Positions 30,792 to 54,720 of a DNA stretch of 64,000 nucleotides are shown piece by piece; positions within the stretch are counted from its first letter, which is position 1; each line of letters starts with the position of its first letter. This stretch comes from Mesonia aquimarina (lineage in GTDB: Bacteria > Bacteroidota > Bacteroidia > Flavobacteriales > Flavobacteriaceae), in NCBI RefSeq assembly GCF_003667275.1, contig NZ_RCNV01000006.1:124001-188000 (forward strand), written 5' to 3'. The notes under the pieces are model-generated. The model searched no databases and was not told where the DNA came from. It was given only the letters and a program-made list of their open reading frames with translations. The translations under genes were made by a program, and so were the position numbers.

Positions 30792-30860
30792 ATGAAAAAA
30801 ATAATGTACATAATGCTAATGATGATGCCTTGGGTTTCCCCAGCGGTTAGCTTTGTATAA
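30792..30860 (+). CDS. Methionine leader peptide 1 (attenuator)
   Basis: 22-codon ORF beginning MKKIMYIMLMMMPWV, with six Met codons of which three are consecutive (30819-30827). It follows a promoter-like box and precedes a strong terminator, upstream of the methionine operon. The last codons contain CAGCGG (30841-30846), which can pair with CCGCTG (30885-30890) in the 5' arm of the terminator. A ribosome stalled at the Met codons would leave this arm free to form the antiterminator. This is the layout of classical leader-peptide attenuators such as those of his and trp. The coding potential and pairing are seen in the sequence; regulation by charged tRNA-Met is inferred. Confidence 0.8.
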   Translation: MKKIMYIMLMMMPWVSPAVSFV

Positions 30861-30880
30861 ATTTAAATGTATAAATTTGA

Positions 30881-30917
30881 AGAGCCGCTGTTAGAAAACA
30901 GCGGCTCTTTTTTTTTT
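30881..30917 (+). terminator. Attenuator terminator 1 of the methionine operon
   Basis: Perfect 12-bp stem AGAGCCGCTGTT/AACAGCGGCTCT with an AGAA loop and ten T. It begins 20 bases after leader ORF 1. It could also stop read-through from the upstream adhesin gene, but the promoter box and leader ORF before it favour attenuation. Confidence 0.85.
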
Positions 30918-30962
30918 ACTATAAAATAAAAATTTTTGATACAACACTTTTGTAATAACGTA

Positions 30963-31025
30963 ATGATGATGAACTCTATGATGACCATGATGATGGGACA
31001 TCTAATACGCTATTGCCGGAAGTGA
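30963..31025 (+). CDS. Methionine leader peptide 2 (attenuator)
   Basis: 20-codon ORF beginning MMMNSMMTMMM: eight of the first eleven codons are ATG. It lies between terminator 1 and terminator 2, so the two attenuators are in series. The 3' end of the ORF, around CCGGAAGTGAGCT (31016-31028), can pair imperfectly with AGCCCCTTTGG in the 5' arm of terminator 2 (one mismatch, small bulges), a weaker antiterminator than in the other leaders of this window. I see no exact -7 box between the two leaders, so one transcript probably carries both. Function inferred from codon content and position. Confidence 0.78.
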   Translation: MMMNSMMTMMMGHLIRYCRK

Positions 31026-31044
31026 GCTAAATAATAATTTAATT

Positions 31045-31086
31045 AAAAAGCCCCTTTGGTAATAGTTTCCAAAGGGGCTTTTTTTT
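31045..31086 (+). terminator. Attenuator terminator 2 of the methionine operon
   Basis: 15-base arm AAAAAGCCCCTTTGG (31045-31059) pairs with CCAAAGGGGCTTTTT, followed by more T, ending 25 bases before the metY start. Its position directly in front of the first gene argues that it controls entry into the operon. Confidence 0.88.
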
Positions 31087-31111: not shown

Positions 31112-32392
31112 ATGAGTGGATTACAATTTTCGACTAAGGCATTACACGCTGGACATCAAGTACAGGAAAATGGGGGAACAAGGGCAGTACCTTTGTATCA
31201 ATCTAGTTCTTATGTTTTTAAGAATACTGATCATGCGGCTAATTTATTCAAGCTTTCTGAACCCGGTTTTATTTATGGGCGTCTAAATAATCCAACCAAT
31301 GCAGTTTTAGAGCAACGTCTAACCGAGTTAGAGGATGGGGTTGGAGCTGTTGTAACCGCTTCAGGAACTGCAGCTATTCATACTTGTTTGCTGAGTTTAT
31401 TAAAAACAGGAGATCACATAGTAGCTTCTAGTAGTTTATATGGCGGAACCTATAATTTATTGAATGTAACTTTAAAGCGTTTAGGTATTGAAACTAGTTT
31501 TGTAGATCCAAGAGAACCCGAAAACGTTAAAAAAGCTATTCAGGAAAATACTCGTGCAATTTTTATAGAATCGTTAGGAAATCCGAAATTAGATATTCCT
31601 GATCTTTCCGTCATCGGCAAGTATGCTCAGCAAGCACAAGTTCCTTTTATTGTTGATAACACAATAGCAACACCTTACCTCCTTCGACCTATAGATTACG
31701 GGGCTAATATAGTTATCCATTCGTTAACAAAATATATCAATGGTAATGGTACAGCCTTAGGGGGTGCTATAATTGATGCAGGTAATTTTAATTGGGCAAA
31801 TGGTAAATTTCCTGAATTTACCGAACCTTCTCCAGGGTATCATGGCTTATGCTATTACGAAACTTTTCGAGAAGCAGCTTTTATAATAAAAGCACGAGTA
31901 GAAGGTCTTCGAGATTATGGAGCTGCGTTAAGTCCATTTAATGCTTTTCAAATTTTACAAGGATTAGAAACTTTACCTCTTCGGATTATAAAGCATTCAG
32001 AGCAGGCACTTTCTTTAGCAAAATGGTTACAACAACAACCACAAGTTGCTTGGGTGAATTATCCAGGTCTGTCTAATAGTCCCTATTATTCATTGAGTAA
32101 AAAGTACTTGCCTAAAGGTCAAAGTGGAATTGTAACCTTTGGAGTAAAAGGAGGGTACGAAGCGGCAAAAAAACTTGTAGATGCTACTAAATTGTTTTCT
32201 CTTCTTGCAAATATAGGGGATACCAAATCCTTGATTCTACATCCGGCTAGTACTGCTCATCAACAATTAACAGATGAACAACAAGAGGAAGCAGGAGTGA
32301 CCAAAGATTTAATTCGTTTAAGTGTCGGGTTAGAGAATTTGGTGGATTTAAAGAAAGATTTACAACAGGCCTTAACTCAAATTAGCATTTAG
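31112..32392 (+). CDS. metY: O-acetylhomoserine sulfhydrylase
   Basis: PLP enzyme that makes homocysteine from O-acetylhomoserine and sulfide. 426 residues from the Met at 31112 (MSGLQFSTKALHAGHQ); the longer frame begins with a TTG inside the terminator and is not used. Family marks: GGTRAVPLYQSSSYVF, the loop around SLYGGTYNLL, and the PLP-lysine segment VIHSLTKYINGNGTALGG, where the extra GNGT is typical of MetY rather than MetB/MetC. First gene of the methionine operon, under the two Met-leader attenuators. A second, shorter sulfhydrylase-like gene lies at 34475. Confidence 0.93.
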   Translation: MSGLQFSTKALHAGHQVQENGGTRAVPLYQSSSYVFKNTDHAANLFKLSEPGFIYGRLNNPTNAVLEQRLTELEDGVGAVVTASGTAAIHTCLLSLLKTGDHIVASSSLYGGTYNLLNVTLKRLGIETSFVDPREPENVKKAIQENTRAIFIESLGNPKLDIPDLSVIGKYAQQAQVPFIVDNTIATPYLLRPIDYGANIVIHSLTKYINGNGTALGGAIIDAGNFNWANGKFPEFTEPSPGYHGLCYYETFREAAFIIKARVEGLRDYGAALSPFNAFQILQGLETLPLRIIKHSEQALSLAKWLQQQPQVAWVNYPGLSNSPYYSLSKKYLPKGQSGIVTFGVKGGYEAAKKLVDATKLFSLLANIGDTKSLILHPASTAHQQLTDEQQEEAGVTKDLIRLSVGLENLVDLKKDLQQALTQISI

Positions 32393-53818: not shown

Positions 53819-54520
53819 TTAATACTCAAATGCACTTAAAGAATTAAATAATTCTTTAAAAGAGGAGATCACAAAGTATTCTTCCTGAAGCCGGTCCGTA
53901 TGGAAATCGGTGTTGATTATTTTTTGGACATTGAACGGATGAAAAACACCCTCTTGTCGATGGATTCTATTCGTTTCTTCAATAGAGGATAGTATTCCGG
54001 CACCATAAGGCTTAAGGATCTCGTTTTCTTGAATAACTCCAAATTCAATGGTAAACCAGTACAATCGTTGCAGTTGGATCAGCTTCTTTTTATGAGCTAG
54101 GTTTTTAACGCCAATTTTTCCAAATTTAGATAGGTATGCAGAAAACACGGGGTTTGCCAATAAGGGAATATGTCCAAAAATATCGTGGAACATATCGGGT
54201 TCTTCCAAATAATCTAATTGATTCGCATTTCTTAGCCATGTAGAGCTACAAAACTTTTTTTCGGCCAATAAACTAAAAAATTCCTCCGGAGGTATAAGTC
54301 CGGGCACTGTTTTTATAGACCAACCTGTATAATTTTTAAACCAGTGCGTTATTTTTTTAAATTCAGGTATTTCCTGACGATTGAGTACGGTTTTCATCTG
54401 TTGTAGACAGTTTAAGTAGGTTGTTGCTGCTTTATTAGGAATATTATTCATTTGTGTAGTTGCTAACAACTGCCATATTTTATGGTCGTCTTTCGTGTAG
54501 TCTTTCATCGTTTGTTTCAT
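53819..54520 (-). CDS. phhA: Phenylalanine 4-monooxygenase
   Basis: Pterin- and iron-dependent hydroxylase that turns phenylalanine into tyrosine. 233 residues, a bacterial single-domain form. The iron ligands are His112 and His117 in FHDIFGHIPLL and Glu159 in YWFTIEFG; GLIPPEEFFSLLA and PYGAGILSS are further family marks. It is preceded by a leader ORF rich in Tyr and Phe codons and a strong terminator, so its expression probably rises when tRNA-Tyr (or tRNA-Phe) is poorly charged. That points to a role in making tyrosine rather than only degrading phenylalanine. Confidence 0.94.
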   Translation of the reverse strand: MKQTMKDYTKDDHKIWQLLATTQMNNIPNKAATTYLNCLQQMKTVLNRQEIPEFKKITHWFKNYTGWSIKTVPGLIPPEEFFSLLAEKKFCSSTWLRNANQLDYLEEPDMFHDIFGHIPLLANPVFSAYLSKFGKIGVKNLAHKKKLIQLQRLYWFTIEFGVIQENEILKPYGAGILSSIEETNRIHRQEGVFHPFNVQKIINTDFHTDRLQEEYFVISSFKELFNSLSAFEY

Positions 54521-54544
54521 AGTAGCATAAATAAATAGTTTGCA

Positions 54545-54579
54545 TAAAAAAACCCGGTTCTCAAAAAGAACCGGGTTTT
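54545..54579 (-). terminator. Attenuator terminator of phhA
   Basis: On the minus strand AAACCCGGTTCT pairs with AGAACCGGGTTT, then seven T, ending 25 bases before phhA. The 5' arm plus loop (CGGTTCTTTTT, 54563-54573) can instead pair with the end of the leader ORF. Confidence 0.9.
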
Positions 54580-54615
54580 AGTTTGTTATTATATGGCATT
54601 ACAGCATATTACACA

Positions 54616-54675
54616 TCAGTTCTTTTTTTGGTGAATGAAGAAATAGTAATAATATGATGTTGCAATAAAGTTCAT
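54616..54675 (-). CDS. Tyr/Phe leader peptide of phhA (attenuator)
   Basis: 19-codon ORF encoding MNFIATSYYYYFFIHQKKN: four Tyr codons followed directly by two Phe codons, plus Phe3. AAAAAGAACTG at the last codons and stop (54617-54627) can pair over 11 bases (one G-U) with CGGTTCTTTTT in the terminator 5' arm. A ribosome held at the Tyr/Phe run would leave this segment free and block terminator formation. An exact -7 box lies 38 bases upstream. The ORF, pairing and terminator are seen; tyrosine sensing is inferred. Confidence 0.88.
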   Translation of the reverse strand: MNFIATSYYYYFFIHQKKN

Positions 54676-54712
54676 GCGGTAGTCTGCTTGTAATTTAAAG
54701 TATTTCAGTTCA

Positions 54713-54720
54713 CAAATATA
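54713..54720 (-). promoter_or_regulatory. Predicted -7 promoter box of phhA
   Basis: TATATTTG on the minus strand, an exact TAnnTTTG, 38 bases before the leader ATG and just after the end of the sterol-desaturase gene. Confidence 0.6.

Follow-up and report, generated by a model that had tools for sequence, protein, structure and literature searches.

A Tyrosine-Codon Leader and Putative Transcription Attenuator Upstream of the Phenylalanine Hydroxylase Gene phhA in Bacteroidota

Introduction

Leader-peptide transcription attenuators of amino acid operons are known in trp, his, phe, thr, and ilv types. The phenylalanine hydroxylase gene phhA is known as a gene under PhhR/sigma-54 control. The element considered here lies upstream of phhA in a 64,000-nucleotide stretch of Mesonia aquimarina DNA (the window). 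It resembles the trp, his, phe, thr, and ilv attenuators in having a short ORF rich in codons for the product, an antiterminator, a terminator, a promoter just upstream, and a product-forming gene downstream; unlike them, the window leader would sense Tyr and control a pterin-dependent hydroxylase, not an enzyme of the chorismate branch. The enzyme family is the same as that of PhhR/sigma-54-controlled phhA, but induction there is by a regulator protein, whereas RNA-level product feedback is predicted in the window.

For Flavobacterium psychrophilum, leader-peptide attenuation before amino acid biosynthesis operons is mentioned in general terms (PMC9723704); the available part of this source, which concerns the same phylum and the same proposed mechanism, names no Tyr leader or phhA. 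Leader-like sORFs in Bacteroides are described in PMC7366714. PAH has been proposed as a Tyr route, including one Bacteroidota species with fitness data (PMC7311316); the portion of that work at hand has nothing on regulation, whereas in the Mesonia window the control region would mark biosynthetic use. The main text of PMC2965389 has no mention of Bacteroid-, Flavobacter-, tyrosine, phenylalanine, or hydroxylase, and PMC4833913 gives general coverage. Titles and abstract beginnings (supplements and subscription papers being outside the scope, and absence from print unproven) contained no description of a Tyr leader before phhA. The proposed type of mechanism, leader-peptide attenuation, is already known. 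The phhA leader would extend the range of amino acids that leader peptides sense to Tyr, and would give a concrete, conserved Bacteroidota case of a control that the sources, as far as available, have so far mentioned there in general terms.

The phhA Locus of the Window

A sequence-only reading of this DNA had placed a Tyr-rich leader and a terminator in front of phhA. That observation is confirmed; leader, terminator, and antiterminator are all present on the minus strand, as follows.

54713 to 54720, minus strand: promoter -7 box TATATTTG of the TAnnTTTG type, assigned from its sequence and its position 45 nt upstream of the ATG
About 54708, minus strand: predicted transcription start, which from the position of the box would leave a 5' UTR of about 33 nt before the leader
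54616 to 54675, minus strand: leader ORF MNFIATSYYYYFFIHQKKN, 19 codons, ATG to TGA (sequence and conservation)
54643 to 54654, minus strand: four Tyr codons TAT TAT TAC TAT, the putative control codons (sequence and frequency of Tyr clusters in relatives)
54642 to 54637, minus strand: Phe codons directly after the Tyr run (sequence)
54617 to 54627, minus strand: 5' strand of the antiterminator, AAAAAGAACUG, which overlaps the stop codon of the leader (predicted to pair over 11 bp with the 5' arm and loop of the terminator)
54605 to 54612, minus strand: candidate protector strand GUAAUAUG, able to pair with CAUAUUAU in the Tyr codons (54656 to 54649; duplex prediction)
54549 to 54579, minus strand: intrinsic terminator stem-loop, then Us (sequence, folding, and covariation in relatives)
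54573 to 54563, minus strand: antiterminator partner CGGUUCUUUUU within the terminator (duplex prediction)
53819 to 54520, minus strand: phhA, phenylalanine 4-monooxygenase, 233 aa (PF00351, NF008877)

The terminator had been described as 12 bp long; its presence stands, while its stem measures 13-14 bp, depending on the choice of loop, and the region folds with a z of -5.2. The alternative pairing of 11 bp was found as proposed: AAAAAGAACUG pairs with CGGUUCUUUUU at -12.7 kcal/mol (z -4.1 against mononucleotide shuffles), and this pairing and the terminator are mutually exclusive.

Four Tyr codons in a row (TAYTAYTAYTAY) have 30 matches in the genome to which the window belongs, four of which sit in ORFs that are at most 60 codons long and have an ATG in frame ahead of the run. 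The phhA leader is the only one of these four short ORFs with a terminator within 150 nt past its stop codon, and a four-Tyr leader before phhA therefore exceeds chance. Another Tyr leader in this genome was considered and rejected, the three remaining short ORFs having no terminator within that distance.

The downstream protein matches PF00351 (E 4.2e-43) and passes the curated cut-off of NF008877 (250.2 bits against 247), while it misses that of TIGR01267 (245.1 against 264.75). By annotation, the gene is a pterin-dependent phenylalanine 4-monooxygenase, so its product would make the amino acid that the leader is predicted to sense. A genome search gave one copy of phhA. No close match turned up in the 15 other genomes of the genus, five of which have a distant, larger hydroxylase and ten no match at all. 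Tyr leaders before the larger aromatic hydroxylase (~585 aa) were rejected as candidates in the genus and family: of 34 loci, 16 had a readable gene start and none of these 16 had a Tyr run, several of the 34 showing one gene twice and the scan covering Tyr runs and ORFs rather than terminators. A few ORFs with scattered Tyr and Phe codons before this gene were flagged (for example, MARNFYEQHFNLN).

Conservation of the Leader Across phhA Loci

The comparison covered 86 phhA upstream regions, which comprised the best 80 of 583 confirmed stretches for close relatives (flanks of up to 3 kb), five phhA loci of the same family, and the window. A terminator had to lie in the last 200 nt before the gene and to consist of a perfect stem of 7 bp or more, four or more of them G-C pairs, with a U-run; a leader had to be an ORF of 8-45 codons that ends before the terminator and has at least three Tyr in five codons. 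Under this fixed rule, the 86 regions (window included; best 80 of 583) divide into 48 with a Tyr leader, seven with a terminator only, 30 with no terminator, and one that is too short. Three rows were dropped before further counts: L065 (no or short upstream sequence), L012 (upstream sequence the same as that of L043), and L014 (the same as that of L106, identity checked). Among the matches listed, 47 of the 83 distinct evaluable regions carry a Tyr leader and terminator, or 54 of 83 when seven rows whose Tyr leader is looser or whose terminator is imperfect are added by eye (L016, L055, L062, L069, L086, L100, and L107); the sequence-only reading had suggested looking at related phhA upstream regions for such leaders and for a covarying stem, and both are found. 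The start codon is ATG in 46 of the 47 rule-positive leaders and GTG in one.

The same scan made for all 20 amino acids over the 86 regions returned Tyr 48 times, Leu 16, Asn seven, and Ile six, with fewer for the rest. Applied to 328 genes other than phhA from the window and the 80 named loci, 13 of which have a terminator, the rule used for phhA found no Tyr leader with terminator. By record titles, leader bearers belong to the Flavobacteriaceae, Crocinitomicaceae, Vicingaceae, Saprospiraceae, and Lewinellaceae. In a PhhA tree the window groups with Psychroflexus (support 98/89), and the attenuator is present in eight of the nine rows concerned; over the whole tree the attenuator label changes 12 times, against a mean of 24 in shuffles. 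One row titled Glaciecola amylolytica (Pseudomonadota; L090) has a Tyr-leader phhA that groups with Fluviicola, and the record may be misnamed.

The sequence-only reading had also suggested, with a hedge, that the Phe codons after the Tyr run provide a second input, such that the leader senses both amino acids. In the window, FF directly follows YYYY, and, judging by the coordinates, most of the antiterminator strand would stay uncovered with a ribosome on the Phe codons. Phe is absent, however, from 25 of the 47 leaders and stands within two codons after Tyr in 11 of 47, and there would be no use in switching PhhA on during a shortage of Phe, its substrate. Phe as a co-signal is rejected as a property of the family, and dual sensing is considered unlikely.

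Structure of the Leader RNA

In the alignment of the 47 leaders the terminator covaries, with 94% of cells paired and two-sided changes in nine of 11 pairs; none of 500 shuffles scored as high. The antiterminator duplex is better than the mean of shuffled leader ends in all 47 (mean z -2.5, or -2.4 with dinucleotide shuffles), and mononucleotide shuffles put its z below -1.5 in 38 of 47 leaders, dinucleotide shuffles in 33 of 47. Pairings of leader ends with their own terminator arms average -12.0 kcal/mol, against -9.3 kcal/mol with the arms of other species, and none of 5000 permutations was as low; individually, the own pairing is in the best tenth of swaps for 17 of 47 leaders.

These results bear on a rival explanation, in which the hairpin is a plain terminator of the upstream gene on the same strand and the Tyr ORF arose by chance in AT-rich DNA. 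A gene of the fatty-acid-hydroxylase family (55502-54738, minus strand) does end about 158 nt before the hairpin, and the leader region is AT-rich; but the leader and terminator recur at phhA loci whose surroundings differ, a TAnnTTTG box separates the upstream gene from the leader, none of the 328 other genes has the combination, and leader ends pair best, on average, with their own terminator arms. A chance ORF before a plain terminator is accordingly very unlikely.

In the 47 leaders, the distance from the first base of the last Tyr codon to the start of the antiterminator strand is 10-24 nt; measured from the stop codon, that start ranges from -28 to +5. Peptide ends (RIG, ELDR, PGTE, KKN, and others) and stop positions differ. 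The spacing from the Tyr codons is kept and the peptide sequence is not, which fits the requirements of a stalled ribosome. On a MAFFT alignment, the antiterminator has 72% of cells paired (one of 500 shuffles as high) and a covariation score reached by two of 500 shuffles, while its two-sided pair changes are not above shuffles (400 of 500 as high). Poor alignment of this segment is perhaps the cause of the mixed column counts; because column covariation is mixed, the argument rests on the duplex and permutation tests.

The window RNA that would be freed by a ribosome on the Tyr codons, before the terminator 3' arm is made, folds into the antiterminator at -8.6 kcal/mol (z -1.5; 14 of 200 shuffles as good), and that freed by a ribosome at the stop codon folds into the terminator at -19.9 kcal/mol (z -5.2). 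The complete stalled transcript folds to the terminator. Since the terminator greatly exceeds the antiterminator intermediate in stability, antitermination would have to be kinetic. Protector pairing between the Tyr codons and the stretch after the stop codon is weakly predicted (window z -0.32; family mean z -0.71, with 32 of 47 below 0 and 12 of 47 below -1.5).

Proposed Mechanism

The window element is very likely a ribosome-mediated transcription attenuator that senses charged Tyr-tRNA upstream of a biosynthetic phhA. The sequence-only reading had proposed Tyr-responsive leader-peptide attenuation, a proposal strongly supported, at the level of sequence, by the conserved Tyr codons, terminator, antiterminator, and spacing.

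Transcription would start about 33 nt before the leader ORF, with a ribosome trailing the polymerase. When Tyr-tRNA is ample, the ribosome at the stop codon would cover the antiterminator strand (54627-54617), so that the terminator forms and phhA is off. When Tyr-tRNA is scarce, the ribosome would stall at the Tyr codons (54654-54643) and leave the antiterminator strand free; this strand would pair with the emerging 5' arm of the terminator, no terminator would form, and phhA would be transcribed. PhhA converts Phe to Tyr, which would close a product-feedback loop. Sequence and comparison show the parts themselves, how they are ordered and spaced, their conservation, the mutually exclusive pairings, and the lack of a match to either prephenate enzyme in the genome; ribosome stalling, read-through, and this physiological role are what we infer.

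Promoter Box and Predicted Leaderless mRNAs

An exact TAnnTTTG lies 8-60 nt upstream of the leader in 33 of 47 cases, where dinucleotide shuffles predict 3.8. The distance from the beginning of the box to the start codon is 11-19 nt in 25 of the 47 Tyr leaders (L041-L120), and exactly 12 nt in eight. In F. psychrophilum, PMC9723704 places the TAnnTTTG box at -12 to -5. With this placement and such close spacing, about half of the leaders are predicted to lie on leaderless mRNAs or on mRNAs whose 5' UTR spans just a few bases; in the eight leaders with the box exactly 12 nt upstream, transcription would begin at the start codon itself.

Tyrosine and Phenylalanine Supply in Bearer Genomes

In the genome of the window (99.99% complete), neither prephenate/arogenate dehydrogenase (PF02153) nor prephenate dehydratase (PF00800) has a match, with 14 of 14 control genomes positive for each; the sequence-only reading had named the absence of prephenate dehydrogenase as a point to check. 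Chorismate synthase is present. This combination suggests that PhhA is probably the sole source of Tyr, fed by imported Phe, unless an unrelated dehydratase exists.

Of the 54 attenuator-bearing genomes, 41 were tested: 27 have no dehydratase match over the cut-off, seven have the dehydratase only, and seven have both enzymes, many bearer genomes being metagenome assemblies of unstated completeness, and one of the prephenate-enzyme searches in relatives having missed one of 14 control genomes. None of the 27 genomes lacking a dehydratase match has a TyrA match over the cut-off, and five have a weaker match to one or the other enzyme. The dehydratase was found in all eight attenuator-less genomes tested (8 of 29). 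Among the matches listed, TyrA occurs in eight of 54 attenuator genomes (seven Psychroflexus and Flavobacterium gelidilacus), and in 12 of 29 attenuator-less genomes, or 18 of 29 when weak matches over the Pfam cut-off are counted. Fisher p values for leader against TyrA are 0.12 (strict leader, strict TyrA), 0.014 (adding the seven leaders found by eye), and 1.7e-5 (adding weak TyrA); the rows are related, so these are not true probabilities and are given little weight.

The neighbourhood of phhA also differs. Tyr-catabolic genes (fumarylacetoacetase, homogentisate dioxygenase, or hydroxyphenylpyruvate-dioxygenase-like; Pfam and tblastn) are found at none of 53 phhA loci with the attenuator and at eight of 29 without it among the matches listed, the window being outside the count, flank lengths differing, and rows being related. 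Pterin-carbinolamine dehydratase is found at 25 of 53 loci with the attenuator and at none of 29 without it (window outside the count; among the matches listed). Relatives with phhA and no leader were to count against the sequence-only reading. This was borne out in part, the leader being missing from 29 of 83 regions among the matches listed, including one Psychroflexus (L050); but eight of these 29 are the loci with Tyr-catabolic genes, and 12 of the 29 genomes have a full prephenate dehydrogenase (TyrA) match. At one leaderless locus (Marinoscillum assembly, L114:3001-5866), phhA is followed by genes with amidotransferase and His_biosynth domains.

There is perhaps an even chance that many Bacteroidota treat aromatic amino acids as animals do, having neither prephenate enzyme, depending on external Phe, and making Tyr only via PhhA under a Tyr-tRNA-sensing leader that is leaderless or nearly so in about half of the species, the leader marking biosynthetic as opposed to catabolic PhhA. 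Many genomes have no match to either prephenate enzyme, yet the formation of Tyr from Phe is seemingly tightly controlled; and a product-sensing attenuator that occurs in several Bacteroidota families and is absent at catabolic phhA loci would provide a sequence-based test of biosynthetic versus catabolic PhhA.

Related Leaders in the Class and in the Window

The window element reaches the gathering score of no Rfam family (Thr_leader RF00506, 24.3 against 55; Trp_leader RF00513, 16.7 against 41), and has no match to the Rfam T-box riboswitch model; the sub-threshold matches are to unrelated terminator-bearing models and are taken as chance. A covariance model of the 47 leaders has matches in 66 of 395 genomes of the class at E of 0.01 or below. 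Thirty matched loci, which include that of the window and some repeats of training sequences, comprise phhA with Tyr-containing leaders (17), hisG with His leaders (four), aspartokinase with Thr/Ile leaders (three), prephenate dehydratase with mixed Tyr/Phe leaders (two, one of them with a GTG start recognised by eye), ilvD, leuA-like, and aminotransferase genes with Ile-rich leaders (three), and one with no readable gene. Pfam, run on ten of the 17 phhA products and eight of the 12 others, agreed with the gene calls. As the model also finds His, Thr/Ile, Tyr/Phe, and Ile leaders, the phhA switch appears to be a member of a wider set of attenuators in the class.

The terminator might instead be controlled by a ligand-binding RNA or an RNA-binding protein, with the conserved arms CCGGUUC/GAAUCGG as the site. 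These arms are similar in sequence over wide distances in the alignment of 47 leaders, and by reading there is no Shine-Dalgarno sequence before the window leader. Against this stand the lack of an Rfam family at gathering score for the window element; the nature of the conserved features, which are in-frame Tyr codons and an antiterminator at a near-fixed distance from them; and the codons found by the leader model, which match the pathway (His before hisG, Thr/Ile before aspartokinase) as sensing by a ribosome predicts. Control by a ligand or protein is thus highly improbable, and ribosome-mediated attenuation is the preferred reading.

Other leaders of this kind were observed. The mixed Tyr/Phe leaders before prephenate dehydratase (for example, MKLFNTYYFGYFYYFSKSRG) lie at about base 1500 of the match strand in L171 and L180, from other Bacteroidia. 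In the window, a His leader MTQKNLHHHFHTCTQAR (48137-48024, minus strand) precedes hisG with a terminator and antiterminator (z -4.1) and a model E of 1.1e-4; its TAnnTTTG box is 15 nt before the ATG, which predicts an almost leaderless leader mRNA. On the plus strand of the window (30792-31081), tandem ORFs rich in Met codons, MKKIMYIMLMMMPWVSPAVSFV (30792-30860) and MMMNSMMTMMMGHLIRYCRK (30963-31025), precede a gene at 31112 for a Cys/Met-metabolism PLP enzyme (PF01053). Each ORF has a terminator of its own behind it, together with a plausible antiterminator (z -2.5 and -3.8), and the Tyr-leader model scores the two weakly (E 0.24 and 0.38); Rfam has no SAM riboswitch there at gathering score, and the pair is possibly a double methionine attenuator. 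The window also contains an Rfam match to the S16-Flavobacteria ribosomal protein leader at 1995-2029 on the minus strand.
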